From the IMG/VR virus record IMGVR_UViG_3300048586_000435, positions 1-36,672 of that record: a stretch of DNA of 36,672 nucleotides; one strand, given 5' to 3'. The position numbers and the translations under genes are program-made. How positions within the stretch are numbered: the stretch's first letter is position 1; each line of letters starts with the position of its first letter. The stretch is from a virus. Below are positions 10,243 to 36,054 of this stretch, piece after piece. Below the pieces are notes generated by a model. It had not been told where the DNA came from. It worked only from the letters and a program-made list of their open reading frames with translations, and ran no database searches.

Positions 10243-10253
10243 GATATTTCCTT

Positions 10254-10752: not shown

Positions 10753-10754
10753 GG

Positions 10755-11111: not shown

Positions 11112-11121
11112 GGTGTCCCCC

Positions 11122-12606: not shown

Positions 12607-12608
12607 GG

Positions 12609-12836
12609 TCACTCCTTCACTTGCGGTTTCTTGGTGGCCTTGGCGGCCGGTTTAACGTCTTCTTTGTCGGCCTGCGCTTCCTCTACCGGAAACACATCAC
12701 CATCTGCCAGCCGTTTCAGCCAGAAGCTGGTGCGCGGTACCTTTTCGCCATCGGCGGCCAGCTTGCTGCCATCCGGTTTTTTGATGACCAGCCCGGGGGC
12801 CGGTTGCAGATGCAGATTTTCGGTAACAGTCATCAT
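12609..12836 (-). CDS. Mu gp38-like small tail protein (DUF2635)
   Basis: 75 residues; the stop is 2 nt before the sheath start. The segment LHLQPAPGLVIKKPDGSKLAADGEKVPRTSFWLKRLADGDV is the diagnostic DUF2635 pattern. The C-terminus is a charged Lys/Ala tail. Two consecutive ATGs (12836, 12833) follow AGGAGC; the second has the better spacing. Its role is unknown. It always sits just upstream of the sheath. Confidence 0.9.
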   Translation of the reverse strand: MMTVTENLHLQPAPGLVIKKPDGSKLAADGEKVPRTSFWLKRLADGDVFPVEEAQADKEDVKPAAKATKKPQVKE

Positions 12837-12841
12837 TGCTC

Positions 12842-13456
12842 CTATGGGGTGGCGGCGGGCATGGTGATATCTGCCTCACAGACCGGGGCGCCATCGCCCT
12901 GTTCGGCGCGCCAGTTAAAGCGCAAGAAGTCATCGAGTGTGGCCGGGTCGATGGGGTTATCGAGTGGCCAGTCCTGCCGCCATGTCACCGACCAGATCGC
13001 CAGTCCCAGCTTGTCGATTCCAGCGGTGTAGAGGTTATCCATCCGCACCCCGTCAGGTGCCTTGCTGGCACCGGTTCCACGCCAGCCGCCAGTCAGCATC
13101 AAGGCGGTGGCCAAGCGACCGGCGATCACCTCGGCCCGCTGGTCTTTGGCATAGCCGAACTGGTCAGCGCAGAACACGAAGGCCGAGAACTCGATAGTGC
13201 CGATCAGGTTGCCTTCACGGCGCATCGATACCACCCGCATTGCGGCGATGCGGATGCCGCCATCGCGGTTACCCATCCAGCGCTTAATCTCATCCGGCTC
13301 GTTGAAGCGTCCGATGTGGCGCTCCACGGTTTGCACCCGGTCAATCACCCGATCCGCGCCGGGGCCGGTGGCCTCCAGATAGGGCTTGAGGTAGTTCACC
13401 ACCCCTTCGCAGGCGCTGACGGTGCTGCCGATGGTGCCAAAATCAGGGCGGCTCAT
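12842..13456 (-). CDS. Mu gp37-like tail terminator-region protein (DUF1834)
   Basis: 204 residues. Mu gp37/gp68 family, located between tail-completion protein and sheath; inferred to act at the head-tail joint or tail terminus. Motifs are VVNYLKPYLEATGPGADRVIDRVQTVERHIGRF, VSMRREGNLIGTIEFSAFVFC and the C-terminal IWSVTWRQDWPLD. Start and preceding stop overlap as ATGA. Confidence 0.87.
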   Translation of the reverse strand: MSRPDFGTIGSTVSACEGVVNYLKPYLEATGPGADRVIDRVQTVERHIGRFNEPDEIKRWMGNRDGGIRIAAMRVVSMRREGNLIGTIEFSAFVFCADQFGYAKDQRAEVIAGRLATALMLTGGWRGTGASKAPDGVRMDNLYTAGIDKLGLAIWSVTWRQDWPLDNPIDPATLDDFLRFNWRAEQGDGAPVCEADITMPAATP

Positions 13457-14010
13457 AGACCTGCCTCCTTCATGATGTCTTGCCAGAAGTCGCCAATCAC
13501 GGCGAGCAGCTCGGTCTGGTTGTCGCTGGAGAGGCCCAGATATTCGCGCTGGGGGATCTCCATCATTCGGGTAAAGCTGCCGACCGACTGATAGACCGGG
13601 AACTTGAGCGCCTTGCCAAACGCCTGGCTGATACGGCGAACGTGGGCAGGCACCTGCACCGAGCCGCTGAACCCGTTCTGATGCACTCCGGCATAGGCCA
13701 GCGGCGAGCCGACCCGCACGCTGTTGCGCTGCACCTGAGATTCGATGCTGTCGAGCAGATCGCCATCACCCTGCAGCAGGCTCTGGCCGCCGTGGCGGGT
13801 CTTGGCATAGGCATCTGACCAGGGCGCCCAGGGCGTACCATCCGGCGCGGTCTTCTCATCGCTGATGCGGCGGCGGGTCTGGCTTTCTACTACGGCGCCG
13901 ATGGTTTCAAGCAGTTCGGCCTTGTAGTCGTTGCGGCCCAGGGTATCGAGCAGGCGCTGATAACGCGCCAGCTCTTCGCCCCGGGTAGAGACCTGCACCG
14001 AGACGGCCAT
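13453..14010 (-). CDS. G: Virion morphogenesis / tail completion protein (Mu gpG, P2 gpS family)
   Basis: 185 residues. The pattern SQTRRRISDEKTAPDGTPWAPWSDAYAKTRHGGQSLLQGDGDLLDSI, then LAYAGVHQNGFSG and PQREYLGLS near the C-terminus, is the conserved phage virion morphogenesis (tail completion) family that includes Mu gpG and P2 gpS. In Mu, G lies next to F, before I. Here it sits downstream of gp36, as in some other Mu-like phages, so the module has moved relative to Mu. The ATG overlaps the gp36 stop by one base. Confidence 0.88.
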   Translation of the reverse strand: MAVSVQVSTRGEELARYQRLLDTLGRNDYKAELLETIGAVVESQTRRRISDEKTAPDGTPWAPWSDAYAKTRHGGQSLLQGDGDLLDSIESQVQRNSVRVGSPLAYAGVHQNGFSGSVQVPAHVRRISQAFGKALKFPVYQSVGSFTRMMEIPQREYLGLSSDNQTELLAVIGDFWQDIMKEAGL

Positions 14011-14444
14011 CAGAGCACCCCTTTCAGGCTATCGCGGGTGAACAGGCGCTCGTTCTCTTGCACCAGCTCGACCTTGCCGACGTTGCCCTCTGGCGGCATA
14101 TCTGGCGTGGGCAGGCCCAGATCCAACTTGCCAGCCGCAATCTCCTTGATTTTGGTGATGGCGCGGTCATAGCGTTCGCGCAGCAGGTCGGTGGCCTGAT
14201 TGTCACGGTCGGCCAGCCAGTAGAAGGCGATGACGATGGCGTTGCGCTTGAGCAGATCCGGCACGCTCGGCAGCGGCAGCACAAAGCGACGACTCAGGTA
14301 GCCATTGATTTCGTCATCGGCGGTGGCCAATGCCTCATCAATCCAGACATCGTTCAGGGTGTCGGTGCTGCGGTCGAGCGCGAAGTTGTAGAGCATCGAG
14401 CCGTCGCGGTCTTCCAGATCCTGCTTCGTCGCGTAGATGGCCAT
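14010..14444 (-). CDS. Mu gp36-like neck/connector protein (DUF1320)
   Basis: 144 residues. The N-terminus MAIYATKQDLEDRDG and the central TADDEINGYLSRRFVLPLPSVPDLLKRNAIVIAFYWLADRD are the hallmark of the DUF1320/gp36 family, a head-tail connector adaptor. The C-terminus has KIAAGKLDLGLP and SRDSLKGVL, also typical. It has a good ATG start, sits close to both neighbours and is on the late strand. Confidence 0.92.
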   Translation of the reverse strand: MAIYATKQDLEDRDGSMLYNFALDRSTDTLNDVWIDEALATADDEINGYLSRRFVLPLPSVPDLLKRNAIVIAFYWLADRDNQATDLLRERYDRAITKIKEIAAGKLDLGLPTPDMPPEGNVGKVELVQENERLFTRDSLKGVL

Positions 14445-14447
14445 GGG

Positions 14448-14954
14448 TTAGTCCTTGATCACTTCGCTATCGATAAGCACTTTCAGCCACGGATCGCCAT
14501 AGACGCGCTTGGCCTCTTCGGCGGTCAGGTAGTAGCACGGGATCTCGCAGTCGTGGCTTTCCGGCACATCGGCCTTGGCGGTCACTACAAACACGCGGGT
14601 CGCGCTGGAGTGCAGGAACTGGACGCCACAGCGCCAGAAACCGGCCGGTGACTTGGCCTTGACATCGAACTGGCCGAGCAGCCAGTCGGGCTGATTATCT
14701 TCAACGGCCATCACCAAGGCGGCATCGCTGATATCCACCTCTTCTTCGAGCTGTTGCTCGGCGACCTGATTGGATGTGGCCAGATTGGCGGCAATCAGAT
14801 CCACACCCTGCGCTTCGGCGGCTTGCTCCAGCGCTACGGATTTCAACGGTTCGGCTTGCGCCTGCACCAGCTCGGCACTTTGATCCACTGCTGCAGCTGC
14901 CAGCTGCTGGCTTTTGTCGTCACCGGTTGGGGTAACTTTCTTTTTCGGGGCCAT
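14448..14954 (-). CDS. FluMu HI1506-like protein
   Basis: 168 residues. The N-terminal half is low-complexity (MAPKKK then Ala/Gln/Glu-rich repeats). The C-terminal half contains GFWRCGVQFLHSSATRVFVV, then LTAEEAKRVYGDPWLKVLIDSE. These resemble the HI1506-type domain of Mu-like prophages, where a compact fold reads an incoming strand and ends on DP-L-V. Position between capsid/decoration genes and gp36 agrees. Function not established. ATG at 14954 with AAAGGAG. Confidence 0.65.
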   Translation of the reverse strand: MAPKKKVTPTGDDKSQQLAAAAVDQSAELVQAQAEPLKSVALEQAAEAQGVDLIAANLATSNQVAEQQLEEEVDISDAALVMAVEDNQPDWLLGQFDVKAKSPAGFWRCGVQFLHSSATRVFVVTAKADVPESHDCEIPCYYLTAEEAKRVYGDPWLKVLIDSEVIKD

Positions 14955-14988
14955 GTCAATGCTCCTTTAAACGGTCGTTACTGGCGGT

Positions 14989-15507
14989 TTACACCGCTGA
15001 AATGGTGGTCTGGCTGGTGACTTGCTCGGCAATCAGCAGCACGGCGGTCAGGTTGTAGGTGCCGCCGTTGGAGCGGATCACCGGCCTGGTGCCGTTGGTC
15101 ACGATGAAGCCACCGGCATCGATACTGAAGAACGTCGCCAGGGTGATGACATCGCTGGTCACCGCTACATCCCGGCTGGCCACTAAGCGGTTGCCGTTGG
15201 TGCCGATAAAATCGAGCTGCAGTGAGCGGTTGCTCGAACCGCCTGACCAACTGCCCACCAGATTCAACTTGAACGCCAGACTGGTGTTGTCGTTGAAGGC
15301 GTTGAGCTTGTTGCTGGTTGTATTGAAGAACGGGGCCAACGTGCCCGCTGCCGGTGCTGGCAGCCCTTTGAGCAGGACAATCAGATCGCGGTCGGTATCG
15401 GCTGGCAGGCTAACGCCGGTCAACCCAGCCCAGCGCACCTCGCTTTTCTTGCGGGTTGGCGTTGGGGCTACAGACCCTGGCAACAACAGAAAGCTGCGAC
15501 CGAACAT
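14989..15507 (-). CDS. Late structural protein of unknown function
   Basis: 172 residues, not recognised. Composition is beta-rich (FKLNLVGSWSGGSSNRSLQLDFIGTNGNRLVAS, DVITLATFFSIDAGGFIVTNGTRPVIRSNGGTYNLTAVL) with few charged residues. It lies among capsid and neck genes, so it may be a capsid decoration or accessory virion protein; this is inference from place and composition only. ATG at 15507. Confidence 0.7.
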   Translation of the reverse strand: MFGRSFLLLPGSVAPTPTRKKSEVRWAGLTGVSLPADTDRDLIVLLKGLPAPAAGTLAPFFNTTSNKLNAFNDNTSLAFKLNLVGSWSGGSSNRSLQLDFIGTNGNRLVASRDVAVTSDVITLATFFSIDAGGFIVTNGTRPVIRSNGGTYNLTAVLLIAEQVTSQTTISAV

Positions 15508-15510
15508 GGG

Positions 15511-15762
15511 TCAACCCTCGGTGACAATCAGGGGGCCACTGCCTATTGCAAGGCGGCCATAGAGGTTTTGCGCCGGTTCGAAGGCCCATGCCTCACTCGC
15601 TCCCCGCTCCAGAACGTGGCCAACGGTGACGGCGGGCAGTGGCAGGGCGGCATCGGTGCGAAACTTCACCAGCTGGCCGCTCTGGTTCTGCATGGTCCCT
15701 CTGGCTGCCGAGGAGATCAGCACCCAGGCTGTCGCGGTCAAGTCAACTTGTCTGGTCGCCAT
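15511..15762 (-). CDS. Small late protein downstream of the capsid gene
   Basis: 83 residues, no family recognised. The sequence (ATAWVLISSAARGTMQNQSG, ALPLPAVTVGHVLERGASEAWAF, LYGRLAIGSGPLIVTEG) looks like a small beta-barrel. A short protein at this position is common in Mu-like phages and may decorate or stabilise capsids. It ends 3 nt before the next gene, so the pair is probably co-translated. Confidence 0.7.
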   Translation of the reverse strand: MATRQVDLTATAWVLISSAARGTMQNQSGQLVKFRTDAALPLPAVTVGHVLERGASEAWAFEPAQNLYGRLAIGSGPLIVTEG

Positions 15763-15780
15763 TGTTCATCCTCTCGGTTG

Positions 15781-15805
15781 AAAGAGGCCCCGACAGTGCC
15801 GGGGC
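15781..15805 (-). terminator. Weak terminator or processing hairpin after the capsid gene
   Basis: GCCCCG (15787..15792) pairs with CGGGGC (15800..15805), and the minus strand continues CTCTTTC. The T-run is poor, so partial attenuation that raises capsid dosage over downstream genes is more likely than full termination. Confidence 0.5.
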
Positions 15806-15816
15806 GGTCTGATTGG

Positions 15817-16716
15817 TTAGGCGAGATACTCGCTGACCACGATCTCGACGTTGTTGTAGTAGATGTTGCTCTCCCCGTTTTCGAGGAACTCGCGCTTGAT
15901 CAGCTTGCGGGCAGCTGATTCATTGCTAACGCCTACTACCAGCACACGAGCTCTGATTCCGATGGGAGTGCCGTTGGACTTCTTCATGCTGGCCAGCTTG
16001 TTCTTGGCCGCTTCGAAGTTGGTTTCGTCCAGCGCGGCCTTGGAGCCGATGGCAGTCTGAGGAAGACCAAAGCCATAGCCATGGCGACCGTCAACACCCG
16101 CCGCAAACTTGTTGTTGAACCAGGTGTATTCGCTGGTTGCATTCATGGTCTGGAAGTCGAACGGACGGCGTTCCTGGAACACGACCGGCTTGACCACCTG
16201 CATATCGTCGATAAGAAACCATGCCGGACCGGTATCGGTTGCCGGGTCGCCCACCACGTTACTGAAGGTGCTGGCCGGGCTGGTATCGAGCGGGTGATCG
16301 GTATCGAAGAAGTTCTGGCCGTCATAGCAGAGGGTGGAGAAACCCGCAGCCAGCAAGCCATAGCTGTTCTGATCAGGAAACACAGCCGCTTCACGGCCGA
16401 AATTTTCGGCGTTCATGGCGTACTTGCCGATCTGATCGTCTTCCACGTCTTCGCGCTTGATGACGATAGAGGCTTCGAAAGTCTTGTTGAGGATCTGATA
16501 GCCATGGCTACCAAGCTCAACCAGCTGACGGTTGCCAATCCACTCCTTGATAGATGGAAGGTCTTTCAGCCAACCGTAGAAGTTACTGGACCCAGAACTA
16601 GGGATCTGAGTCGCAATGCGATTCCACTGCGGCGCAATGGTGCCAAGACCGCGAGTGTAGGCTGCTGACATGGAGACGGTCAGCGCCTCCAGAACTTGGG
16701 CTTCGGTAAATGCCAT
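15817..16716 (-). CDS. T: Major capsid protein gpT
   Basis: 299 residues, Mu-like major head subunit. Diagnostic stretches are the N-terminal SAAYTRGLGTIAPQWNRIATQIPSS, NFYGWLKDLPSIKEWIGNRQ, SHGYQILNKTFEASIVIKREDVEDDQIGKY and the YDGQNFFDTDHPLD motif. It ends with ARKLIKREFLENGESNIYYNNVEIVVSEYLA. The HK97-type fold is inferred from the family. ATG at 16716 with GGGGAG upstream, 6 nt after protease I. Confidence 0.95.
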   Translation of the reverse strand: MAFTEAQVLEALTVSMSAAYTRGLGTIAPQWNRIATQIPSSGSSNFYGWLKDLPSIKEWIGNRQLVELGSHGYQILNKTFEASIVIKREDVEDDQIGKYAMNAENFGREAAVFPDQNSYGLLAAGFSTLCYDGQNFFDTDHPLDTSPASTFSNVVGDPATDTGPAWFLIDDMQVVKPVVFQERRPFDFQTMNATSEYTWFNNKFAAGVDGRHGYGFGLPQTAIGSKAALDETNFEAAKNKLASMKKSNGTPIGIRARVLVVGVSNESAARKLIKREFLENGESNIYYNNVEIVVSEYLA

Positions 16717-16722
16717 GATGGA

Positions 16723-17670
16723 TTACTCCCCTTGTTTGGCTTTCATGGCTTGCTTGGCAGCCAGGAACTCTTCGGGCGTATGGCCCATCTTGCGGCACAG
16801 GGCCAGTTCGTCAGCGCTCAGCGCACCGCCCTGCGGCGGCTTGGTGGTGACCTTGCTGGCATCGGCGATGACCGGAGCACGACCGCACCATGCGGTGAAC
16901 TGCTCGCGGCCTGCTTCGGTACTGCAGAGGCCGGCATACATCGCCTTGTCAGCCGGAGCGACCTTTCCTTCGGCAATGGCAGCATCGACCAGCGCATTGA
17001 CCTTGGACTTTTCGATCTCGGCCAGCTTGGATTCCAGCTCCTGAGTGCGATTCAAGGCCAGCTGATGGGTGGCAGCAGGGACGAACTTGGTCGGGTCCTG
17101 CTGGGCGTTCAGTGCAATCTGTTGCTGCGCTTGCATGGCGTTGATGGCTGTCACGGCCTGTTCGGCAGTGGCATCCTCAGCCAGGCCCAGCAGCTGGGTC
17201 AGGACAAGGGGCAGTTTCACAGTGTGATCCTCTTGGTGGTTGAGAGCGGGGACATAGAGATTGGGCTTGTTGGTCAGGCCAGCGCTGAGCATCGCGAAGA
17301 CTTCGCGACTATCACTGAAGTAATCAAACGCTGGCGAATAGAAGCCGAACTTCTTCTCTTCCAGCAATTCGCTGCCTGCACCATTCCATTCCACACGGCC
17401 CCAGATTTCGCCTGTGCGGTTTTGCAGCTCGACAATCCAGCCGACCGCCTCGGTGTTGCCTTTGCGGGTTTCGGTGGCGTGTTCAACGTCGAATGGCAGC
17501 TTCATATCGAATTGAGCCACCACGCCATCTGGGTTGGAGTTATTCCAGCTACGACCATCTCGACCAGAGAATTGACCAGCCGGGATTAACGGCAGCCACA
17601 CTCCCTGCTCTTCTGCCACCATGCGGGACATGTCAAAGCAGATGGCCTTATGGATACGTTGGTGGTTCAT
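16723..17670 (-). CDS. I: Head maturation protease / scaffold gpI
   Basis: 315 residues from the ATG at 17670 (GGAGC upstream). Mu-like I protein: the N-terminal domain is a capsid maturation protease and the C-terminal half provides scaffold (Mu Z). Likely catalytic residues by family pattern are His64 (FDVEHAT) and Ser112 (FGFYSPAF). The C-terminal half is helical and Gln/Glu/Lys-rich (about 150-260). The C-terminal MGHTPEEFLAAKQAMKAKQ is a typical capsid-binding tail. Whether a separate Z start exists inside the frame was not resolved. Confidence 0.92.
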   Translation of the reverse strand: MNHQRIHKAICFDMSRMVAEEQGVWLPLIPAGQFSGRDGRSWNNSNPDGVVAQFDMKLPFDVEHATETRKGNTEAVGWIVELQNRTGEIWGRVEWNGAGSELLEEKKFGFYSPAFDYFSDSREVFAMLSAGLTNKPNLYVPALNHQEDHTVKLPLVLTQLLGLAEDATAEQAVTAINAMQAQQQIALNAQQDPTKFVPAATHQLALNRTQELESKLAEIEKSKVNALVDAAIAEGKVAPADKAMYAGLCSTEAGREQFTAWCGRAPVIADASKVTTKPPQGGALSADELALCRKMGHTPEEFLAAKQAMKAKQGE

Positions 17671-22752: not shown

Positions 22753-22881
22753 TTACCCCAGCAGCTTGTCAATCAGCGGGGCGGTGCAGCCCCACAATGC
22801 GGTGACCGGATCGCCAAACAGCAGCAGCGCCAGCAGGTAGCCGACGCCAATCATGGCGGTGATATCCAGCAGGCGGTTCAT
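22753..22881 (-). CDS. Small membrane protein (42 aa)
   Basis: MNRLLDITAMIGVGYLLALLLF... with a single strong hydrophobic helix (about residues 8-22) and a second mildly hydrophobic part. AAGGTG precedes the ATG at 22881. An in-frame ATG at 22899 overlaps the previous stop. Its stop lies 2 nt before gp27. It is in the lysis/packaging part of the late operon; no family recognised. Confidence 0.65.
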   Translation of the reverse strand: MNRLLDITAMIGVGYLLALLLFGDPVTALWGCTAPLIDKLLG

Positions 22882-22891
22882 GCTTGGCACC

Positions 22892-23140
22892 TTACGCATG
22901 GCCAAGCCGACGCGCGCGGCGCTGGGCGCGTTGCGCCTTGGCCTGACGATTGGCACGTTTGACAGAAGGCTGACGGCCGTTGAAGGCTGGCCGATATCCT
23001 CTATCGCGCCTGATATGGCGCACCGCCTCATCCATCTTCACATAATGCTGAGCCAAGTTATGAAGCGGTGGATTTCCGAAGAGATCACCAAACCAACCCA
23101 ATACGCCAAGCAGCAAGCTTTTCATCGTTCGATTCCCCAT
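22892..23140 (-). CDS. Small basic protein with hydrophobic N-terminus
   Basis: 82 residues, MGNRTMKSLLLGVLGWFGDLFGNPP followed by a very Arg/Lys/Gln-rich second half (SVKRANRQAKAQRAQRRARR). GGAGT precedes the ATG at 23140. The amphipathic N-terminus suggests membrane association, and the basic tail nucleic-acid or phospholipid contact. Not recognised; lies among lysis and packaging genes. Confidence 0.65.
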   Translation of the reverse strand: MGNRTMKSLLLGVLGWFGDLFGNPPLHNLAQHYVKMDEAVRHIRRDRGYRPAFNGRQPSVKRANRQAKAQRAQRRARRLGHA

Positions 23141-25501: not shown

Positions 25502-25975
25502 TTAATACGCCCGACCATTACGCCGACCATTGCCATCAGCAACCGGATCCAGTCCGGTGAACATATCCGGCTGGACTTTACGCAATTCACTGCGGCGCAT
25601 TCTTGCCAGCACAAATTGAATTTCCCGCACCGATACGCCGAATTTACGCGACAGCTCAAACTGATTCTTGCCGTTGAACTCCTTCCAGATCTGGATAGAG
25701 CGCAGCACGGTAGCCAGTGTCTTGCCGTTCGGCACGTAGAAGGGGGCCCCGCCGAAGGTGCGGCAGAACTCCGAGAGCATGAAGAACGACAGCATGGGGG
25801 AATCGCGGTGCGCCCCCACCACATGTTCGATGGTGTCGAACATGGCGCGCAGCTGCTCGCTCCAGCCCGGGGCGGTTTCATCGCTCAGCATGCGGTAGGT
25901 TTCAGGGTCGATGGCGTCCAGGTCAACGCCTACGCCAAACAGGTCAACGGATTGATGGTCGTGCGCATCTTTCAT
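25502..25975 (-). CDS. mor: Mor-family late transcription activator
   Basis: 157 residues. Mor/C family: N-terminal dimerisation part (WSEQLRAMFDTIEHVVG), the invariant strand FCRTFGGAPFYVPNGKTL and C-terminal helix-turn-helix NQFELSRKFGVSVREIQFVLARMR (about 103-128). In Mu, Mor activates the middle promoter and its relative C activates late genes; only one member was found here, so it probably does both jobs. It has its own transcript between two terminators. ATG at 25975 with GGGGG upstream. Confidence 0.93.
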   Translation of the reverse strand: MKDAHDHQSVDLFGVGVDLDAIDPETYRMLSDETAPGWSEQLRAMFDTIEHVVGAHRDSPMLSFFMLSEFCRTFGGAPFYVPNGKTLATVLRSIQIWKEFNGKNQFELSRKFGVSVREIQFVLARMRRSELRKVQPDMFTGLDPVADGNGRRNGRAY

Positions 25976-26075: not shown

Positions 26076-26522
26076 CTACCCCACCTTGTTAGCCGAACAG
26101 TAGATGGTGTTTTCAACCCTGCCAAATGTGAATGACCAACCATTTATCACGCCGCTTCTGGTACTGCCTGACGCTAAATCGCCGGTGTATATCTTTGCCA
26201 GCGCCTGCTCGTCTGGGGTTTGCTCACTCCATGATGATGGCATTGCCAGTGGTGCCAGACCTGCAAGGCGCCAGCAGTACCCCTCTGACGTACCCATCTG
26301 ATCTGATTCAAGGTCAGTAAAATCAACCTTTACCGCACCGCTACTGGCAGAAAGCTTTACATTCAAAATCCGATATTTATCGGCATGGCTTGCCAGCTCA
26401 ACGCCATTATTGGTGGTCCAGCCATCTACATGCGATGCCTTGAAACTGGTCTTAACATCATCGACAGACGCTGATGCGCCGAATGATATAAGGGCCAAGG
26501 CCAATAACACGTTCAACTTCAT
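26076..26522 (-). CDS. Secreted protein of unknown function (probable moron)
   Basis: 148 residues with a clear Sec signal peptide (MKLNVLLALALISFGASA, cleavage near SAS-VDD) and a two-Cys mature part (YCWRLAG ... TIYCSANKVG) that could form a disulfide in the periplasm. No family recognised. It is AT-richer than neighbours, sits at the end of the early operon and has the same 16-bp start context as the next gene upstream. This points to a cargo gene, perhaps altering the envelope or phage exclusion; that is inference only. Confidence 0.75.
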   Translation of the reverse strand: MKLNVLLALALISFGASASVDDVKTSFKASHVDGWTTNNGVELASHADKYRILNVKLSASSGAVKVDFTDLESDQMGTSEGYCWRLAGLAPLAMPSSWSEQTPDEQALAKIYTGDLASGSTRSGVINGWSFTFGRVENTIYCSANKVG

Positions 26523-26733: not shown

Positions 26734-27366
26734 TCAACTCTCCTTCTGCTGTATTTCACTCACCGGCTTGCTGCCATCGATCACCATTATCTGCACTGGC
26801 CGCCAGCCGGGGTTGTCATAGGCTTGGCGGATCAGGTCGTAACCCGGCATCGCATCATCGCGGTGTCCGCGAGGCTCTGGCACCACATCCCCGCGCTCGA
26901 TAATGGCGGCTGTCATCAGGCGGATATGCCACTTCTTCAACGCCTCCAGCACCCGCTCGGCCTGCGCCGATGTGAGCCACTCCGGTCGGCTGATACCGGC
27001 GCCGCCGTTGGCGTTGGCGGTCATCCGCTTGATGTAGCTGCCCAGCGCATCGTCTGAGCCATCTCGCACGAAGCCGTCATTGTACATGGTGATCCAGATG
27101 GCGCGCACCTTGCGTACCTCCGGCGCCTGCACCTTGGCTGCACTGGGCGGGGAGCGGCGCCCAGCAACCTGGGCGCCCCCTTTGACCTTGAACCCCAGCC
27201 CCTTCATGGCGATGATGACGGCATCGAGTTTGGCCGCGCTCAGGCCCTTGGCAGAGCGGGCGCCGGTCACGGACTCCAGCAGGCAGCGGTAATCCTCCTC
27301 ATCCAGCCCCAGTTCGCGGCGACCGACTTGCACAATCTTGAGCAAGCGCTTGGCATCAGGCTGCAT
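26734..27366 (-). CDS. gemA: GemA / Mu gp16-like regulatory protein
   Basis: 210 residues. N-terminal LKIVQVGRRELGLDEEDYRCLLESVTGARSAKGLSAAKLDAVIIAMKGLGFK is the gp16/GemA family signature. In the middle are VRAIWITMYNDGFVRDGSDDALGSYIKRMT and a C-terminal RVLEALKKWHIRLM. In Mu, GemA affects host gene expression through DNA gyrase activity and lies just before mor, as here (after a two-gene insertion). ATG at 27366 with GGGGG. Confidence 0.93.
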   Translation of the reverse strand: MQPDAKRLLKIVQVGRRELGLDEEDYRCLLESVTGARSAKGLSAAKLDAVIIAMKGLGFKVKGGAQVAGRRSPPSAAKVQAPEVRKVRAIWITMYNDGFVRDGSDDALGSYIKRMTANANGGAGISRPEWLTSAQAERVLEALKKWHIRLMTAAIIERGDVVPEPRGHRDDAMPGYDLIRQAYDNPGWRPVQIMVIDGSKPVSEIQQKES

Positions 27367-27892: not shown

Positions 27893-28130
27893 TGTCTTCG
27901 TCCTCATCGTCCGCCGTGGCGGTCACAATCACTTTACGGCTCTTTGGTGGCTGGCCTTCACGCCAGCGCGGTACCGTTTTGTCTAACCAGCCGATGGCGA
28001 TGCCATCGGCCTGTTCATCCAGCTCATGCAGCTCGCTCTTGCTCATGCCCTTGTGGCGGCGCTTTGCGTAGCACTGCATGTTGGCTTTTACGTAGTTCAC
28101 CATCCTGCGCTGGTAGCGGGTCAGGGCCAT
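27882..28130 (-). CDS. Small early protein, basic with acidic C-terminus
   Basis: 82 residues. Start ATG at 28130 preceded by AAGGAG with ideal spacing. MALTRYQRRMVNYVKANMQCYAKRRHKGMSKSELHELDEQADGI is basic and helical; the end is DDEDEDNEH. It overlaps the zinc-ribbon gene by 107 nt in another frame and the HTH gene by 11 nt. Unrecognised. Confidence 0.75.
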   Translation of the reverse strand: MALTRYQRRMVNYVKANMQCYAKRRHKGMSKSELHELDEQADGIAIGWLDKTVPRWREGQPPKSRKVIVTATADDEDEDNEH

Positions 28131-28350
28131 GGCGTTTTCTCCTTCTTCGTTCCCGCCCGACCTCTTGCTCGCAGGCCTTGCAGTAGTGCTGTAGTCCGTC
28201 TAGTGACTTTTCACTTTTCCATTCAGACCAGAAGGTCGTATCTTGCGGCCAATACTCACCGCATCGATTGCATAGCTTTTCCAGCCCCATTTCTGGATCG
28301 ATTCTGGCTTTTCCGCTCTCTAGCCTCTTTTCAAGAAGACCAGGTTTCAT
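28024..28350 (-). CDS. Zinc-ribbon early protein
   Basis: 108 residues. CNRC (27-30) and CKAC (57-60) form a likely zinc site around WPQDTTFWSEWK, as in small phage zinc-ribbon/HNH-like proteins; no His-Asn-His catalytic triad was seen. The ATG at 28350 overlaps the preceding stop as ATGA; an ATG at 28374 with GGGGG is an alternative. The C-terminal 35 residues after RRRRKRHG are in the overlap with the next gene and may be unimportant. Confidence 0.75.
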   Translation of the reverse strand: MKPGLLEKRLESGKARIDPEMGLEKLCNRCGEYWPQDTTFWSEWKSEKSLDGLQHYCKACEQEVGRERRRRKRHGPDPLPAQDGELRKSQHAVLRKAPPQGHEQERAA

Positions 28351-28604
28351 TGGAGGAGTGTATTCACCGTGCATACGGCCCCCTTGCCATCCATCCGCTG
28401 CAGGCGTTCTGCCTCCAGCTCTGCCAGCAGTTGCTCGGCGCCGCGCAGGGCATCACCGGCAAGATCATGTGCGCGGTACTTTCTGGCGCCCCGCGACAGG
28501 GCGATAAAGCGGCGCTGCAGCACCAGCTTCTCTTTCCAATTCAGCGCTATGGTCATCTCGCCATAGAGCCGGTTTAACAGGTTGTTCAGCACTTCTCGGG
28601 TCAT
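28347..28604 (-). CDS. Early protein downstream of the ribozyme
   Basis: 85 residues, MTREVLNNLLNRLYGEMTIALNWKEKLVLQRRFIALSRGARKYRAHDLAGDALRGAEQLLAELEAERLQ... It is mostly helical and not recognised. Its GAGAGGAC ribosome site is 8 nt before the ATG at 28604. It is the first gene after the hammerhead cleavage site, so its mRNA would start with a 5'-OH end about 80 nt upstream. Confidence 0.75.
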   Translation of the reverse strand: MTREVLNNLLNRLYGEMTIALNWKEKLVLQRRFIALSRGARKYRAHDLAGDALRGAEQLLAELEAERLQRMDGKGAVCTVNTLLQ

Positions 28605-28635
28605 AGCGTCCTCTCTGTTTTCAGGAGTGGGTTAT

Positions 28636-28649
28636 GACCGGGCCCGGTC
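28636..28649. repeat. 14-bp GC-rich palindrome next to the ribozyme
   Basis: GACCGGGCCCGGTC is perfectly self-complementary and begins 5 bases after the ribozyme's conserved region. In RNA it may form a small hairpin or dimerise; in DNA it may be a binding site. Confidence 0.8.
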
Positions 28650-28653
28650 GGCT

Positions 28654-28718
28654 GCTCATCAGTGCCCAGCCACCACGCTGGGCAGACCATACCGAGCACC
28701 AGCTCGGCATGGTTTCGC
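28654..28718 (-). ncRNA. Type II hammerhead ribozyme
   Basis: On the minus strand, in order: G11.2 C11.1 (28718, 28717), GAAA (28716..28713), and stem III of 12 bp (ACCAUGCCGAGC with GCUCGGUAUGGU, one G-U) closed by UGGU. Then cleavage base C17 (28685) after U16.1, and stem I of 8 bp (UGCCCAGC with GCUGGGCA) with a 6-nt loop GUGGUG. CUGAUGA (28662..28656) follows, then G10.1 C10.2. All conserved core bases are present, and stem II is the open one (type II). Predicted cut between 28685 and 28684. Stem II is only 2 bp plus possible extension. The ribozyme begins right after the UAA of the upstream gene. Type II hammerheads are known from bacteria and phages. Confidence 0.88.
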
Positions 28719-28931
28719 TTACTTGTTCAGGCGTTTGCGCGCCTTATTGACGATGGTGGTCAGCATGGCCAACCGCGATTTGTGGTTCTCTTGTTCGCCC
28801 TGGTCGTTAATAAAGTCGATGGCGAGCTGGGCTTCTTGCTGCGCCTGCTCGGGGTTGTGCTCCATGATGCAATCGAAGGTAGATTTGGCATCTGTAACGC
28901 TGGTATTCAGCAGGTTGATGACGCGTTCCAT
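28719..28931 (-). CDS. Orphan early protein upstream of the ribozyme
   Basis: 70 residues, MERVINLLNTSVTDAKSTFDCIMEHNPEQAQQEAQLAIDFINDQGEQENHKSRLAMLTTIVNKARKRLNK. All-helical, amphipathic, with a basic C-terminus; no family recognised. AGGAT lies before the ATG at 28931. Its UAA (28721..28719) directly abuts the hammerhead, so cleavage would leave the coding region intact with a stable 3' hairpin (stem III). Confidence 0.75.
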   Translation of the reverse strand: MERVINLLNTSVTDAKSTFDCIMEHNPEQAQQEAQLAIDFINDQGEQENHKSRLAMLTTIVNKARKRLNK

Positions 28932-29042: not shown

Positions 29043-29503
29043 GCGGCCACCTCTTTCAGTTCGCTGACCAGCTCCAGCCCCTCGATCTTCTTGAACTGGC
29101 GCACCAGTGCGGTGCTGCTGCCGAAGTACGGGACAAGGTAGGTCCAGCCTTTTTTTTCTGGTTCTTCGCCAAACATCTCTTTCATGCGTTTGGCACCAAG
29201 GCGGCGTTTATGCTTGGCCATGGTTTCAAGCTCTTTCTTGCTATACATGGCTTTGAACTTGTGGAAGAAAACCTGCTTTGCCACCTTGTTCATAAAGTCG
29301 TCAGCTGGGTCAATGTTGCTGACCTGCGTAAACCATTTGCCTTCAATCACGCCATCGACATACACACCCAGCACCGTGGTGCTTTCACTCTTGCGGCAGC
29401 GGCGGATAGTGATTTCATGTCCATGCAGCCTGAAATTCATTGTCACCCATTGGCTCTTCAGCTCGGCCGCGATGGCCTGCCATTGCTCTTTGCTGATAGC
29501 CAT
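29039..29503 (-). CDS. Early protein of unknown function
   Basis: 154 residues from the ATG at 29503, which overlaps the ANR-gene stop. The N-terminal half (VTMNFRLHGHEITIRRCRKSESTTVLGVYVDGVIEGKWF) is beta-rich. The second half is basic and helical (FHKFKAMYSKKELETMAKHKRRLGAKRMKEMFG), with a C-terminal YFGSSTALVRQFKKIEGLELV. It may bind nucleic acid. Unrecognised. Confidence 0.75.
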   Translation of the reverse strand: MAISKEQWQAIAAELKSQWVTMNFRLHGHEITIRRCRKSESTTVLGVYVDGVIEGKWFTQVSNIDPADDFMNKVAKQVFFHKFKAMYSKKELETMAKHKRRLGAKRMKEMFGEEPEKKGWTYLVPYFGSSTALVRQFKKIEGLELVSELKEVAA

Positions 29504-29745
29504 CACGCAGCCCTCTTGCCAAAGCGGTGGATGCAGGTCAGGCAGAACGCGGCGCGCTGGCGGGCATACTCCACGTTGAGCTGGTTCTTGGCGGCCTTGG
29601 CGGCGGGCTTCCACATCTCCAGCGCGGCGGCATAACGCTCTTCACGCTCCAGCTGGGCGGCCTGGGTGGCCAGTGCCAGATAACCGTTCGGATTCTTTGC
29701 GACTTGGTGGGCGATCTCGTCGCCCTTCAACACTGCATTAGCCAT
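29503..29745 (-). CDS. ANR-family regulator
   Basis: 80 residues from the ATG at 29745 (AGGAG 7 nt upstream). YLALATQAAQLEREERYAAALEMWKPAAKAAKNQLNVEYARQRAAFC is the ANR family pattern (Y-LA--AA-LE---Y--A---W--A---A----N--Y---R--FC). ANR proteins bind AraC-type activators and dampen virulence regulons in enteric pathogens. A prophage copy could rewire host AraC-family regulators; that is inference. Confidence 0.85.
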   Translation of the reverse strand: MANAVLKGDEIAHQVAKNPNGYLALATQAAQLEREERYAAALEMWKPAAKAAKNQLNVEYARQRAAFCLTCIHRFGKRAA

Positions 29746-30022
29746 GGTGTAACTCCTGTTCAAATCTCGTTTGTTGCTTGTCGTACACGGTGACGATGGA
29801 GCCGTTCTTCAAGATGAAATAGGCATCGTCACATTCAAGGATCCGGCGCGGGCTCCATCCCGCCTCGCGCTGCCGGATCCGCCGCAGCTGGCGTTTGCTT
29901 GGGCGCCAAGCCCGTGACAGGGCGCCCAGCATCTCCAGTTCGCTGCGGCCGGTACGTTGCACCCAGCGCTCGATGGCGTGGCGGGTGACGTACAGCGGGC
30001 CATAGCGGGTTTCAAACTCCAT
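29738..30022 (-). CDS. Early protein, RelE-like size, unknown
   Basis: 94 residues. YVTRHAIERWVQRTGRSELEMLGALSRAWRPSKRQLRRIRQREAGWSPRRILECDDAYFILKNGSIVTVYD. The arrangement HAIERWVQR... ...AYFILKNGSIVTVY resembles phage-conserved nuclease-like or toxin-like domains but is not assigned. It overlaps the previous gene by 11 nt; the start ATG is at 30022. Confidence 0.7.
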   Translation of the reverse strand: MEFETRYGPLYVTRHAIERWVQRTGRSELEMLGALSRAWRPSKRQLRRIRQREAGWSPRRILECDDAYFILKNGSIVTVYDKQQTRFEQELHHG

Positions 30023-30268: not shown

Positions 30269-30877
30269 TCACAGCTTTGCCCAGTCGAGGTTGATCGCCA
30301 CGTACTTGCCAGACGGCTCGCGCTGGTAGAGGCGGATGTATTCTTTCTTGCTGACGGTGGTGATGGCGTCGGCGATGGCATCCATAGCGGCCTTCCACTC
30401 GTCATCTTCGATAGCCAGATTGCGCAGGCTCAGTACCTGGTTGACATCGATACGGCCCTGTTTGTTGACGCGAAAAGCGTGGTCAACCATGGCCACCAGA
30501 TTGGCGCTTGCCCCCTCTGACCAGCGTTCGATGCAGGCGTCGATTTGCGCCTTGGCAGCCTGGATCCGTTCATCAAAAATCCGGTGCTCGCCGATGGCCC
30601 GCTCGACTTTCATTGAGCCGTCATAGCTGGTCAGTGTGATGTTGCCCTTGGCACCGCCGTAGGTGACGCCGTATTCCTGGGCGCTGAGGTCCAGATAGTC
30701 TTCCAGCTCCCGCTGCATCTGCACCTTGGCAGCGGCCATTTGCAGCTGCAGGGCTTGTGCCGCAGCGACTTGCTTGCGCACCACGCCATCACGGATCAGG
30801 TCAATGGTCTTGATCAGGCTTTCTGGTACCAGGTGGCCCTGGGCATTGCGGTGCAAGGTGTCGGTTTGGTTGGTCAT
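30269..30877 (-). CDS. DUF3164-family early protein
   Basis: 202 residues. N-terminal RNAQGHLVPESLIKTIDLIRDGVV, central QRELEDYLDLSAQEYGVTYGGAKGNITLTSYDGSMKVERAI and IDACIERWSEGASANLVAMVDHAFRVNKQGRIDVNQVLSLRNLAIEDDEWKAAMDAI form the DUF3164 signature. In other Mu-like phages this gene sits in the same place downstream of B, often beside a Gam nuclease inhibitor (not seen here). It may act in DNA replication or protection; function unproven. Confidence 0.88.
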   Translation of the reverse strand: MTNQTDTLHRNAQGHLVPESLIKTIDLIRDGVVRKQVAAAQALQLQMAAAKVQMQRELEDYLDLSAQEYGVTYGGAKGNITLTSYDGSMKVERAIGEHRIFDERIQAAKAQIDACIERWSEGASANLVAMVDHAFRVNKQGRIDVNQVLSLRNLAIEDDEWKAAMDAIADAITTVSKKEYIRLYQREPSGKYVAINLDWAKL

Positions 30878-31961: not shown

Positions 31962-32897
31962 TTACTCCCCCTCCAGCTCGTTGTAGGCGTGGCGCAAGAT
32001 GGCCTCGGTCAGCGGCTCGCCGCCTGAGTACATCACCGCGAGTTTCAGATTCTTGCTGACCAGTCGCAGGGCACCTGGGCGCTCACTGATCCGCAGCAAC
32101 AGATCCCGCTCGGCCGCGCCGTCGATGTTCCAGGCATCCGCCACGGCCATCACGTCGGCTTTCTTGGCCTTGGTGAGGGCGCGCTTCTTGGCCACGCGGG
32201 AATAAAGGCGGGCGAAGTCCTCGGAGCGCTGGCCGCCAGTCAGTTGGGTGTAAACCCGGGAGTTGCCGACCAGCACCATGCCGACCTCGACCTCTTCCAC
32301 CAGGATGCGCAGCTCTTCGAGGGTGGCGCGGTCGAGGTGGTCGGCTTCGTCTACCACGATCAGGCCTTTGGTGTTGAGCAGGCGGCGGCGCAGGGCGCGG
32401 GCCAGCGGGCCACGCAGGCGGGGGGCGTTCTCCATCCCTAACTCCATCGCCAGCTCATACATGCACTCGGTCATGGTGGCGCGGCTCGGGCTGGTAGTGA
32501 TGACCCAGACGTTGTTGTTGTTGCGCTGGAACTCGCGCAGGGCGGTCGTTTTGCCCACGCCAGACGAGCCGTGAATGATGACGATGCTCTGAGTGGTCAG
32601 CGCATAGGTCATGTCTGCGCGGATCTGCTTGGCGGTTTCAGTCAGCACAAAGCCGGGGTCGCGGGGGGCATCGGCTCGCTGGTCGCGGGCGGTCAGCCAG
32701 TTGGCCAGCTTCTGCACCATGGCGGTGGAGTCGGCTTTGTAGTTGCCGTTCAGCAACTGGTTGATGGTGGTCGGGGATACCCCCACCTCTTTGGCGATCT
32801 GCGCCTGGGTAACCTTGCTCTGTTTCAGCAGGGCATTGACCCGGTCCAGTACATCCTGGCTGTTGCCGTTTTGGTCCAAAGTGACTACGTTTGTCAT
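31962..32897 (-). CDS. B: Transposition target-DNA ATPase B
   Basis: 311 residues from the ATG at 32897. Mu B-type AAA+ ATPase that binds target DNA, delivers it to the transposase and gives target immunity. N-terminal helix-turn-helix (about 24-50, KVTQAQIAKEVGVSPTTINQLLNG), Walker A HGSSGVGKT (109-117) and Walker B LIVVDEAD (179-186). A putative sensor-1 region (MVLVGNSRVYTQL) and arginines in RSEDFARLYSRV follow, then a C-terminal MuB-type domain. It is 28 nt after A with an intervening hairpin. Confidence 0.95.
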   Translation of the reverse strand: MTNVVTLDQNGNSQDVLDRVNALLKQSKVTQAQIAKEVGVSPTTINQLLNGNYKADSTAMVQKLANWLTARDQRADAPRDPGFVLTETAKQIRADMTYALTTQSIVIIHGSSGVGKTTALREFQRNNNNVWVITTSPSRATMTECMYELAMELGMENAPRLRGPLARALRRRLLNTKGLIVVDEADHLDRATLEELRILVEEVEVGMVLVGNSRVYTQLTGGQRSEDFARLYSRVAKKRALTKAKKADVMAVADAWNIDGAAERDLLLRISERPGALRLVSKNLKLAVMYSGGEPLTEAILRHAYNELEGE

Positions 32898-32916
32898 GTC
32901 AAGTAACTCCCTTATC

Positions 32917-32940
32917 GCGGCCCACAAGGCCGCTTTTTTT
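32917..32940 (+). terminator. Plus-strand terminator between A and B
   Basis: GCGGCC (32917..32922), loop CACAA, GGCCGC (32928..32933), then TTTTTTT (32934..32940). As a terminator it faces against the early operon and would stop antisense transcription entering A. On the mRNA strand the same hairpin sits just before the B ribosome site and may modulate B translation. Confidence 0.75.
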
Positions 32941-32956: not shown

Positions 32957-34969
32957 TTAAATCCGGTTTTTCTGTTTTTCAGCCATGGCTTCGGTGGCTG
33001 CTTGAAAGCGGGCCTCGAAGTCGATGACGGGTTCGGGTTGACTGCTGGGTGTGGGGGCAACATGGGCCACCGGTTGCACGGCCAGCGCGGCATTGCCGTG
33101 GCTGATCGGGCGCACCATTTCCACTACCTTGGTTTCGGGTGCTTCTTCGTCTGTGATGCTGGGCAGCAGGGCGGCAGCTTCGAGGGCTGACATGCCTTGC
33201 TTGGCCAGCGCGGCGGCCTTGTTCGATTTGACGAACTGGGTGCGCTTGCGCTTGTGCTCGCGGGCTTGCTGGGTATCGCCGAACGCGACTTTCTCCAGGC
33301 ACTCCGCATCGCAGATATGCAGGCCGTTGAGGGTGGTGACGACCACCGCCTCGTGCAGGCGCTGCGGGTCGAACCGAGCCACCACCTTCTGCCCGACGTA
33401 CTCGGCCAGATCGGCGTGAAAGTAACGGTTGCTGCGATTGGCGATGGCGCCGCCCGATTCCAGGGTGATGGTGCCGTGCTGGCTGACGCGGCAGGCCTCT
33501 GACTGCAACAGCATCATGGTGAGCTGTTCAGCGCTGGCCTTGCGGATCGTCGCTTGGCGGTAGCTCTGTTCGAATGCTTGGTCAAAGCTCATCACCCCAC
33601 GGCAGGCCTCGGTCTGGCGCCCTACCTTGGCGTTGTACATGGCGACCCCTTCGGCCACGATGCGCAGAAACTCGGCTGCATCCGCCGCCCGTTCACCATA
33701 ATTGTCGGGCTTGGCCATGGGGTTGGAGCCGGTGTAGCAGCCTCGCAAAGCAATGTGTTTGTCGATGTATTCCTCAAGCCCGCCATTACCAAAGGCGCGT
33801 TCGATCGGCTTGGCTTGACCGTGGCCCTTGCCCAGCAGCACGCTGGACCAGTGCAGCTTGATGCCAAGCATGGGGATCATGCCGAGCGGATCATCTGGCT
33901 TGACCTTGAAGCGGTAGCGGTTTGGCACGCCCCCGGTCATCCATTTGTTGGCAGCGGCGCGGGTGTTATCGATGGTGATCTCACGCGGGATGCCGTATTT
34001 GCTGCACACGTCCATCAGAGACAGGCGGATGCTGTCAGTGTTCTCACTGATATCAGTGCGCCAGCCCACGATCTTGCGGCTGTAGATGTCCTGCCAGAAC
34101 CATGTTTTCGGGCGCAGTACTTCACCGTTGAACCACTTCACGAAGACGTTGTGCAGGTAGCCGTCGCCGTTGATCCACTCCATGGCGTCCAGGTCTTCGA
34201 TGGTGCGTTCTTGCGGCGGGTAGAGCTGCATCATGGCGTGCTCACCTTGGCGCAGCATGACTTGCTGGGCGTGGGGCACTTCCAGATCCAGCCGGCGCAT
34301 CAGGCTATCCAGGCTTGGGTACGTCCAGCCGTGTTCCTTGGCTGCGACCTTGAGCCGTTCGTAGCAGCTGGCCGCGTTTGGCTGCTCACTGCGCAGATAA
34401 TCGACTTTGAAGAAATCCCAGGCTTGATCGCTGACGGCGGCCAGACGAACGGCGCGGCCTTCGGTGGCGGCTTGCTGCTGCTTGGGCACCAGCACGGCCA
34501 GCCAGTCGCTATCGTCAAAGCCTTTGACCATGGCGCAGTAGCGGCGCAGGGTCGGCAGGGCGATGTCGAACTCGTCGGATATGTGCTGGTAGGCCTGCAT
34601 CAGGGTGCTGCCGCTGGCAACCAGGGCATGCACCGCCTTGACGGCAGCCGCACGGGCCATGGCTTTGGCGTGCGCCTTTTCGTTGGCCTTCTTCCAGTTG
34701 GCCCACAGCTGATCTTTGCAGTAGCGCGGCGCCTGTGGCTTGGGCAGATCCAGCGTCATACCGCCGACCTTGACCTTGCCAGCCTTGCGCAGCAGGGCGG
34801 CTTGGACGGTGGGGGGAAGGCTTGATACTGCAAACTCCAGTGCCTTGCCTCTCACCCCTTCTTTGCGGCGGCTGACCCAGCCTTCACGCTTGGCCATCTT
34901 GTGAACGCCCATCACGGACGATGGAAGACCTGCAAGGCCGAGTACGTCGTTAATCGAGAACCATTCCAT
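32957..34969 (-). CDS. A: Mu-type DDE transposase A
   Basis: 670 residues (MuA has 663) from the ATG at 34969 with GGGAGG upstream. The N-terminal enhancer-binding domain (FSINDVLGLAGLPSSVMGVHKMAKREGW, 4-31) resembles the repressor's N-terminus. Two end-binding helical domains follow (about 80-245). Catalytic core: Asp269 (EWINGDGYLHN), Asp334 (EITIDNTRAA), Glu390 (GQAKPIERAFGNGG), almost the same numbering as MuA D269/D336/E392. Then a beta-barrel and an ERK-rich region, and a C-terminal domain with AMAEKQKNRI that may contact B and ClpX. Cuts and joins phage ends for lysogeny and replication. Confidence 0.97.
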   Translation of the reverse strand: MEWFSINDVLGLAGLPSSVMGVHKMAKREGWVSRRKEGVRGKALEFAVSSLPPTVQAALLRKAGKVKVGGMTLDLPKPQAPRYCKDQLWANWKKANEKAHAKAMARAAAVKAVHALVASGSTLMQAYQHISDEFDIALPTLRRYCAMVKGFDDSDWLAVLVPKQQQAATEGRAVRLAAVSDQAWDFFKVDYLRSEQPNAASCYERLKVAAKEHGWTYPSLDSLMRRLDLEVPHAQQVMLRQGEHAMMQLYPPQERTIEDLDAMEWINGDGYLHNVFVKWFNGEVLRPKTWFWQDIYSRKIVGWRTDISENTDSIRLSLMDVCSKYGIPREITIDNTRAAANKWMTGGVPNRYRFKVKPDDPLGMIPMLGIKLHWSSVLLGKGHGQAKPIERAFGNGGLEEYIDKHIALRGCYTGSNPMAKPDNYGERAADAAEFLRIVAEGVAMYNAKVGRQTEACRGVMSFDQAFEQSYRQATIRKASAEQLTMMLLQSEACRVSQHGTITLESGGAIANRSNRYFHADLAEYVGQKVVARFDPQRLHEAVVVTTLNGLHICDAECLEKVAFGDTQQAREHKRKRTQFVKSNKAAALAKQGMSALEAAALLPSITDEEAPETKVVEMVRPISHGNAALAVQPVAHVAPTPSSQPEPVIDFEARFQAATEAMAEKQKNRI

Positions 34970-34980
34970 GACAGCCTCCC

Positions 34981-35205
34981 TCAGACCGCTTCTTGCATTT
35001 CTGGGTAGCGGGAAGGCCAAATATCAGCAGGCTTGGCATCCAGAGCTTCAGCAATGATCCGCTCGCCTTTCGGCCAAGGGCGGGAAAACGCGTTGTAAAG
35101 GGTTCCGCTATCAAGCCCGTTCTCACGGGACAGGCGAGCCATGTTGGTCCCCCTCTTTTTCAGCGCCGAAATCACATCAGCCCTATGCCAATCTTTATTT
35201 TCCAT
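34981..35205 (-). CDS. ner: Ner-family negative regulator of early transcription
   Basis: 74 residues. Ner/SfsB family helix-turn-helix: DWHRADVISALKKRGTNMARLSRENGLDSGTLYNAFSRPWPKGERIIAEALDAKPADIWPSRYP. The C-terminal PADIWPSRY is typical. In Mu, Ner binds between c and ner and shuts off early and repressor promoters. First gene of the early operon, ending 11 nt before A. ATG at 35205. Confidence 0.95.
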   Translation of the reverse strand: MENKDWHRADVISALKKRGTNMARLSRENGLDSGTLYNAFSRPWPKGERIIAEALDAKPADIWPSRYPEMQEAV

Positions 35206-35397: not shown

Positions 35398-36054
35398 GTG
35401 ATAAACCAATGGATGTCAGCAAAAGAGATCGCTGCACTTCCTGGAATGCCCAGCACGATCCAGGGCGTACACAAGAAGGCGAGGCGTGATGGATGGCAGC
35501 AGCGCAAGCAGGCTGGTGTAAAAGGCCCCGGTGTTGAGTACCTGGTGGAAGTCAGCAGCGAGCAAATCTCTCAGCAAGAGCAGAGCGAGCGAGTTGAAGA
35601 GCCAGAGGCGGTTTATCTAAACCAGTTTATGGAAGAGTTTGCACTGATCCCTGGCTATCGGGTGCAGGTATCAGCAGGTCATGGCGCGCTAGCCCAAGTA
35701 GATGAGGCGCCATGCCGCCACCTGGCGTTCCGCCGCAAGTGGCTTAAGTGGCGCGGCTTTGCTGAGAAGGAGCTGGCGATTGTCTGGAGCAAAGGCGACA
35801 GCATGGAGCCCACAATCAGCAACAACGACACCCTGGTCGTGCACCTTGGCAGAACGCGCCCGGTTGATGGCCACATCTACGTGGTGCGCAATGATGACCA
35901 GCTATGGGTCAAGCGCCTGCAGGTGCTGCCGAGCGCCTGGCTGCTGCTGAGCGACAACAAGCACTATCAGCCGATAGAGGTACCGAAGGACGAGCAGCAC
36001 ACCTTCGAAGTGATTGGGCAGGTCGTCCATATCTCCCACGACGTAGGAGAGTGA
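35398..36054 (+). CDS. c: Phage repressor: MuA-type DNA-binding domain fused to S24 peptidase
   Basis: 218 residues from a GTG at 35398 (GAGGAGAG upstream). Residues 3-50 (WMSAKEIAALPGMPSTIQGVHKKARRDGW...) are a Mu DNA-binding domain resembling the A N-terminus. The C-terminal half is a LexA/S24 serine-lysine protease fold: candidate cleavage dipeptide Ala93-Gly94 (VSAGHGA), nucleophile Ser135 (KGDSMEPTI) and general-base Lys172 (LWVKRLQ). RecA-stimulated self-cleavage would make the prophage SOS-inducible, unlike Mu c. It is the only plus-strand phage gene. Confidence 0.94.
   Translation: MINQWMSAKEIAALPGMPSTIQGVHKKARRDGWQQRKQAGVKGPGVEYLVEVSSEQISQQEQSERVEEPEAVYLNQFMEEFALIPGYRVQVSAGHGALAQVDEAPCRHLAFRRKWLKWRGFAEKELAIVWSKGDSMEPTISNNDTLVVHLGRTRPVDGHIYVVRNDDQLWVKRLQVLPSAWLLLSDNKHYQPIEVPKDEQHTFEVIGQVVHISHDVGE

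Follow-up and report, generated by a model that had tools for sequence, protein, structure and literature searches.

Type II hammerhead ribozymes in prophages are already published, and ribozymes have been linked to Mu-like phage genes as well. Hammerheads and twisters are the classes found enriched there (Roth 2014 and Weinberg 2015, as cited in PMC10085705). In type II hammerheads, loop I pairs with the 3' tail, and a stem II of two base pairs is common (PMC3088659). Self-cleavage in vitro is established for the class, and the phage hammerheads of A. tumefaciens also cleave themselves in E. coli (Perreault 2011, PMC3088659). Hammerhead clusters that flank small ORFs are known (PMC3088659, PMC6155905), and clustered phage hammerheads are thought to cut long transcripts into mRNAs of operon or gene length (PMC3088659). 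The role of hammerheads in phages is listed as an open question (PMC6155905).

The DNA analyzed here, referred to as the window, is a stretch of 36,672 bases from an IMG/VR virus record. The original prediction placed a type II hammerhead in the early operon of a Mu-like prophage. The gene content bears out this setting: MuA, MuB, DUF3164 and ANR are encoded upstream of the ribozyme, and a zinc-ribbon-like protein, GemA and Mor downstream, all on the minus strand. The genes and signals of this region are:

32957-35020, minus strand: MuA
31962..32927, minus strand: MuB-like transposition protein (PF09077), upstream of the ribozyme
30269..30877, minus strand: DUF3164 protein (PF11363), an early gene upstream of the ribozyme
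29503-29763, minus strand: ANR regulator, upstream of the ribozyme
28719..28931, minus strand: upstream ORF, 70 aa, phrog_18491
28609..28615, minus strand: Shine-Dalgarno-like GAGAGGA of the 85-aa gene, from the sequence
28347..28604, minus strand: downstream ORF, 85 aa; preceded by the ribozyme in 17 of 17 viral relatives
28024..28374, minus strand: zinc-ribbon / HNH-like small protein, phrog_3273
26734..27366, minus strand: GemA (PF06252)
25502..25975, minus strand: Mor transcription activator (PF08765)

The zinc-ribbon gene, gemA and mor had also been treated as one downstream early block. Their order is as described, but mor may not be on the same transcript: a terminator-like hairpin (26035-26012) lies between gemA and mor, so that mor may need read-through or a promoter of its own. 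On the ribozyme strand, no promoter-like site was called in the interval from the ribozyme to mor, and no terminator-like site was called near the ribozyme. A gene for a small protein of 148 aa (26076-26522, phrog_28288), the N-terminus of which resembles a signal peptide, is also located between gemA and mor. Elsewhere in the window (35398-36054), a repressor-like protein is encoded, which has a Mu DNA-binding domain and an S24 peptidase domain (LexA/CI-like).

Close relatives of the ribozyme are found on Aeromonas plasmids and in Aeromonas genomes. The host is thus probably Aeromonas or a near relative. One of the Aeromonas plasmids (NZ_CP077203, L131) carries a fragment of a Mu-like early region with a hammerhead, gemA and Mor. 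This fragment is interrupted by copies of ISAeme19, and it is adjoined by a Qnr family gene.

As judged from its sequence, the window RNA is a type II hammerhead, a new copy of a known family, in a setting that is also known. When the whole window was searched with Rfam cmscan, Hammerhead_II (RF02276) matched 28720..28646 on the minus strand over the full model length with 67 bits (E 5.5e-12), compared to an Rfam gathering cut-off of 37 bits. This covariance search had been proposed as a check of the hammerhead identity, which it upholds. Our own covariance model scores the window ribozyme at 72 bits. No other credible RNA was found in the window by cmscan; a candidate second hammerhead (22937..22868) was rejected as a chance match of 11 bits. 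The minus strand from 28724 to 28640, with a slash at the predicted cut, reads AAG TAA GC GAAA CCATGCCGAGC TGGT GCTCGGTATGGT C/TGCCCAGC GTGGTG GCTGGGCA CTGATGA GC AGCC GACCGGGCCCGGTC. Its elements are:

28646..28720, minus strand: type II hammerhead ribozyme (RF02276 and our own covariance model)
28719..28721, minus strand: TAA stop that ends the 70-aa gene, abutting stem II with gap 0, a pattern shared with relatives
G28718/C28717 with G28655/C28654, minus strand: stem II (GC/GC), invariant in 43 aligned ribozymes
28713..28716, minus strand: core strand GAAA (G12 A13 A14 A15.1)
28713-28702 with 28697-28686, minus strand: stem III, 12 bp with a 4-nt loop, including A15.1-U16.1 (folding, covariation)
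28685 (C17) and 28684 (U1.1), minus strand: predicted cut between these two positions (alignment to RF02276, hammerhead chemistry)
28684-28677 with 28670-28663, minus strand: stem I, 8 bp with the 6-nt loop GUGGUG (folding, covariation)
28656..28662, minus strand: core strand CUGAUGA
28649..28653, minus strand: 3' tail AGCCG, of which GCCG (28652-28649) pairs with loop I
28636..28649, minus strand: perfect palindrome of 14 nt, GACCGGGCCCGGTC, an RNA hairpin following the ribozyme tail

All conserved hammerhead positions had been reported as present, and the sequence and the alignment to RF02276 agree with this; the closing pairs G10.1-C11.1, U1.1-A2.1 and A15.1-U16.1 are all found. Stems I and III are closed by loops and stem II is open, as a type II hammerhead requires. 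The fold contains the expected stem III of 12 bp with its tetraloop and stem I of 8 bp, and the alignment to RF02276 supports the cut site between 28685 and 28684. MFE folding gives the hammerhead region a stability 5 SD above that of shuffled sequences (z -5.06). In the MFE fold, stem II is displaced: AGCG pairs instead with CGCU, which lies near the start codon. Stem II is missing from this fold because the method cannot score a pseudoknot.

This pseudoknot involves UGGU of loop I (28675-28672) and GCCG of the tail (28652-28649), which form two G-C and two G.U pairs. It is paired in 91% of the cells of a 43-sequence alignment. Double changes are seen in the L018 copies, where the tail GCGA is matched by the loop UCGC, and in the L058 copies, where tails with UGCC are opposite loops with GGCA. 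Stem II had been described as a short GC/GC stem that might be extended past an internal loop. The short stem stands and the extension does not: two G-C pairs are the norm in this family and the pairing of loop I with the tail braces the fold, so that an extension is not needed. The palindrome is restricted to the Aeromonas-type group. In relatives, GACCGGGCCCGGTC is replaced by GACCTGGGCCCAGGTC or GACCAGGGCCCTGGTC, in which paired bases have changed together (T-A or A-T). Both in the window and in its group, the palindrome is located between the tail and the Shine-Dalgarno sequence, and the start is shifted to 49 nt.

Relatives were collected with a degenerate pattern scan, which matched at least 120 viral and at least 119 genome stretches. 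Because parts of the core and tail were set in the scan patterns, the conservation of these letters is partly built in; the genome pattern left the stems free. After the scan, at least 4 pairs of stem III and at least 3 pairs of stem I were required at the core end. Among the matches listed, the pairing of stems I and III survives letter changes in nearly every one of 228 distinct ribozymes, compared to about half to three quarters at informative positions when the arms are shuffled. Pair 2 of stem I is G.U or U.G in 129 of these 228 ribozymes, but not in the window. In the 43-sequence alignment, 95.6% of the cells are paired, compared to 73.2% when shuffled and less than 46% when slid, and the covariation score is 0.579 (0.162 shuffled, ~0.1 slid). 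The hammerhead core is invariant in alignment A1.

A test free of scan bias started from viral loci retrieved with the downstream protein (17 loci) or the zinc-ribbon protein (19 loci), with many contigs being shared between these sets. An intact hammerhead is found just upstream of the fetched block in 17 of 17 and 19 of 19 loci, respectively. Related phages with a broken core but retained surrounding genes had been named as the case that would argue against a ribozyme; none is among these 17 and 19 loci, all of which keep an intact hammerhead, so that this objection fails. A search with 81 bases of the ribozyme retrieved 251 records, including a Pseudomonas group (confirmed in DMS3); the Mycobacterium records are raw matches. 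A blastn search of 401 bases around the ribozyme against phages gave no match, and a protein scan of genome contigs with DUF3164 gave no confirmed relatives.

The ribozyme lies between co-directional genes on the same strand and overlaps neither ORF. It had been noted to sit flush against a stop codon. This holds for the window, where the TAA abuts stem II with gap 0, and it is general among the relatives. Among the matches listed, an in-frame stop closing an ORF of 40 or more codons abuts GCGAAAC (offset 0, or +1 as TAG) in 81 of 145 hammerheads from viruses and 50 of 116 from genomes; most other offsets occur a handful of times each. When one ribozyme is counted per upstream gene family, 45% are flush with the stop and 91% are within 11 nt. 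In a compact genome, any intercistronic element would to some extent be expected to lie flush with a stop. On the other side of the ribozyme, the AGCC tail is directly followed by Shine-Dalgarno-like motifs, and the distance from GAGC to the start codon peaks at 13-19 nt. The cut had been predicted to damage neither protein. In the window, the predicted position lies past the stop of the 70-aa gene and leaves 80 nt to the start of the 85-aa gene, so that both ORFs would be spared.

The position relative to gemA was analyzed in 210 hammerhead loci, which are stretches of partial length, some of them from near-identical phages. In 178 of these, gemA is on the same strand as the hammerhead, while it is exclusively on the opposite strand in none. 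The hammerhead is upstream of gemA in 176 of the 178 loci, at a median distance of ~0.6 kb. Among named phages picked by GemA similarity, a hammerhead upstream of gemA is found in RcapMu, RS1, the Shewanella phages MuM16-1 and MuM16-2, and Vibrio phage 1.159.O. The same holds for DMS3, a widely used Pseudomonas laboratory phage, and in all six the preceding annotated CDS ends at most 4 nt from the ribozyme. In DMS3, the hammerhead is located between DMS3-16 and DMS3-17, ahead of GemA and the late activator. It is flush after DMS3-16 (8950-9021). An in-frame ATG is found a few nt past its tail, 114 nt upstream of the annotated start of DMS3-17, which suggests that the annotated start is wrong. 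In Rhodovulum phage RS1 (L344:2358), the annotated start of RHVG_00018 is inside the hammerhead and is probably wrong.

The association with gemA is not universal. No hammerhead was found in Mu and RR1-B, both of which carry gemA. Among gemA loci picked phylum-wide and regardless of ribozymes, about 10 of 30 have a hammerhead within ~1.5 kb, while for gemA loci of the genus Aeromonas the figure is 8 of 11. In the hammerhead-free gemA loci, no other Rfam ribozyme class was found within ~1.5 kb at gathering thresholds. Because Mu and RR1-B are devoid of a hammerhead and about two thirds of the gemA loci sampled phylum-wide have none within ~1.5 kb, its function is dispensable or replaced in other phages.

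Some relatives carry arrays. IMGVR_UViG_3300017605_000570 (L288/L018) has 24 hammerheads within 7.6 kb (record 9932-17520), all on one strand, and most of them fit without a gap between small ORFs that follow each other. Nine hammerheads each are found in a second viral contig and in Streptomyces sp. NRRL F-5123.

Self-cleavage of the window ribozyme is very likely. We consider it reasonably probable that a functional hammerhead cuts the early mRNA between two genes during transcription and so uncouples the gemA-mor part from the transposition and accessory genes. Splitting of the early mRNA for separate control of its halves is the best-supported of the proposed roles, and it is strengthened by the stop-ribozyme-start rule and by the position upstream of gemA. 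The RNA of the early operon would be cut co-transcriptionally between 28685 and 28684, leaving two messages. On the upstream mRNA, the 3' end would be formed by the stem III hairpin and carry a 2',3'-cyclic phosphate. The message downstream of the cut, with the 85-aa gene, the zinc-ribbon gene, gemA and possibly mor, would begin with a 5'-OH and the stem I hairpin; in the Aeromonas-type group, the palindrome would provide a second hairpin at this 5' end. Work on T4 showed that RNases E and G favor 5'-monophosphate ends and that PNPase requires a 3'-OH (PMC3014915). Unless repaired, the 5'-OH end would be a poor target for RNase E/G, and the cyclic-phosphate end a poor target for PNPase. As such ends should slow decay, the two halves of the mRNA would decay and be translated independently. 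We infer that the window copy is cleaved in its host with effects on mRNA stability, and the benefit to the phage may lie in independent, probably more stable mRNAs.

A broader proposal is tentative, and we lean somewhat against it: hammerheads may be a general punctuation of Mu-like early operons, freeing genes or blocks as 5'-OH mRNAs with lifetimes of their own, possibly gated by ribosomes. The gemA-mor block, which leads to the late switch, would be the chief unit separated, and one contig would be punctuated at 24 junctions. If gating by ribosomes were the main function, a ribosome terminating at the flush stop or a 30S subunit on the neighboring start region would cover one strand of the catalytic core, and the RNA would be cut only when the junction is ribosome-free, so that the ribozyme would report translation of the early operon. 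This would fit with the stop codon and the GC-GAAA strand meeting exactly in roughly half of the matches listed, with the Shine-Dalgarno sequence directly following the pseudoknot tail in most relatives, and with both core strands being within ribosome cover according to known footprint sizes. The spacing may, however, simply reflect compactness, hammerheads fold and cut fast during transcription, and the Shine-Dalgarno sequence of the window is ~30 nt farther away than usual; we regard gating as unlikely. The ribozyme could also act as a modular joint, with its conserved 3' half being a homology seam for swaps of small genes and cleavage merely making insertions harmless. Across 20 related loci, the gene immediately upstream belongs to about ten different families, whereas the downstream gene stays the same; several loci (L129/L265, L252, L253, L267) have an extra gene together with an extra hammerhead, and the 24-copy array would also be accounted for. 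A seam needs sequence, however, and not catalysis, and this leaves the intact catalytic core and the covarying stem III unexplained. A joint is quite unlikely as the primary role.

The ends left by a hammerhead, a 2',3'-cyclic phosphate and a 5'-OH, are substrates of the ligase RtcB, and many relatives have at least two copies. Joining of these ends by a host RtcB into circular or spliced phage RNAs is nevertheless very improbable. For the window, circles are rejected because a single copy cannot release an internal fragment, and circular and spliced products were sought by Perreault 2011, but none were found (PMC3088659). The strong GC-rich hairpins might instead be taken for an intrinsic terminator or attenuator with an incidental hammerhead match. 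A full-length Rfam match of 67 bits with an invariant core speaks so clearly against this that its probability is close to nil. The terminator candidate was rejected, as neither stem III nor stem I nor the palindrome is followed by a T run, and no terminator was called there.

If the amounts of GemA and Mor depend on the ribozyme, lytic timing in transposable phages would involve an element made of RNA alone, one which the textbook phage Mu lacks. DMS3 and RcapMu share the geometry and the position, so that point mutants of tractable phages can be used to test its role. The flush stop/start geometry and the upstream-of-gemA rule, as well as arrays of the 24-copy size, were not found in the searchable literature, which is mostly outside subscription journals. 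The geometry and the gemA rule come from our own measurements, and Roth 2014 or Weinberg 2015 may already describe them. No priority is claimed for the geometry, the gemA rule or the 24-copy array.

The RF02276 hammerheads described previously (PMC3088659) share with the window the core, the open stem II of 2 bp, the closed stems I and III, the pseudoknot and the location in a prophage operon. The catalytic unit is thus the same, while the Aeromonas-type group adds a palindromic hairpin after the tail. The A. tumefaciens triple and the phage hammerheads of C. scindens and A. caulinodans are likewise intercistronic (PMC3088659). In contrast to the clustered phage hammerheads, the window has a single copy, located upstream of the gemA-mor module. 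A functional parallel is the RegB endonuclease of phage T4, which cuts early mRNAs between genes and leaves a 5'-OH and a 2',3'-cyclic phosphate (PMC3014915). RegB, however, is a protein which cuts within Shine-Dalgarno sequences and inactivates early genes (PMC3014915), whereas the window RNA is predicted to cut itself and would spare both ORFs and the Shine-Dalgarno sequence.
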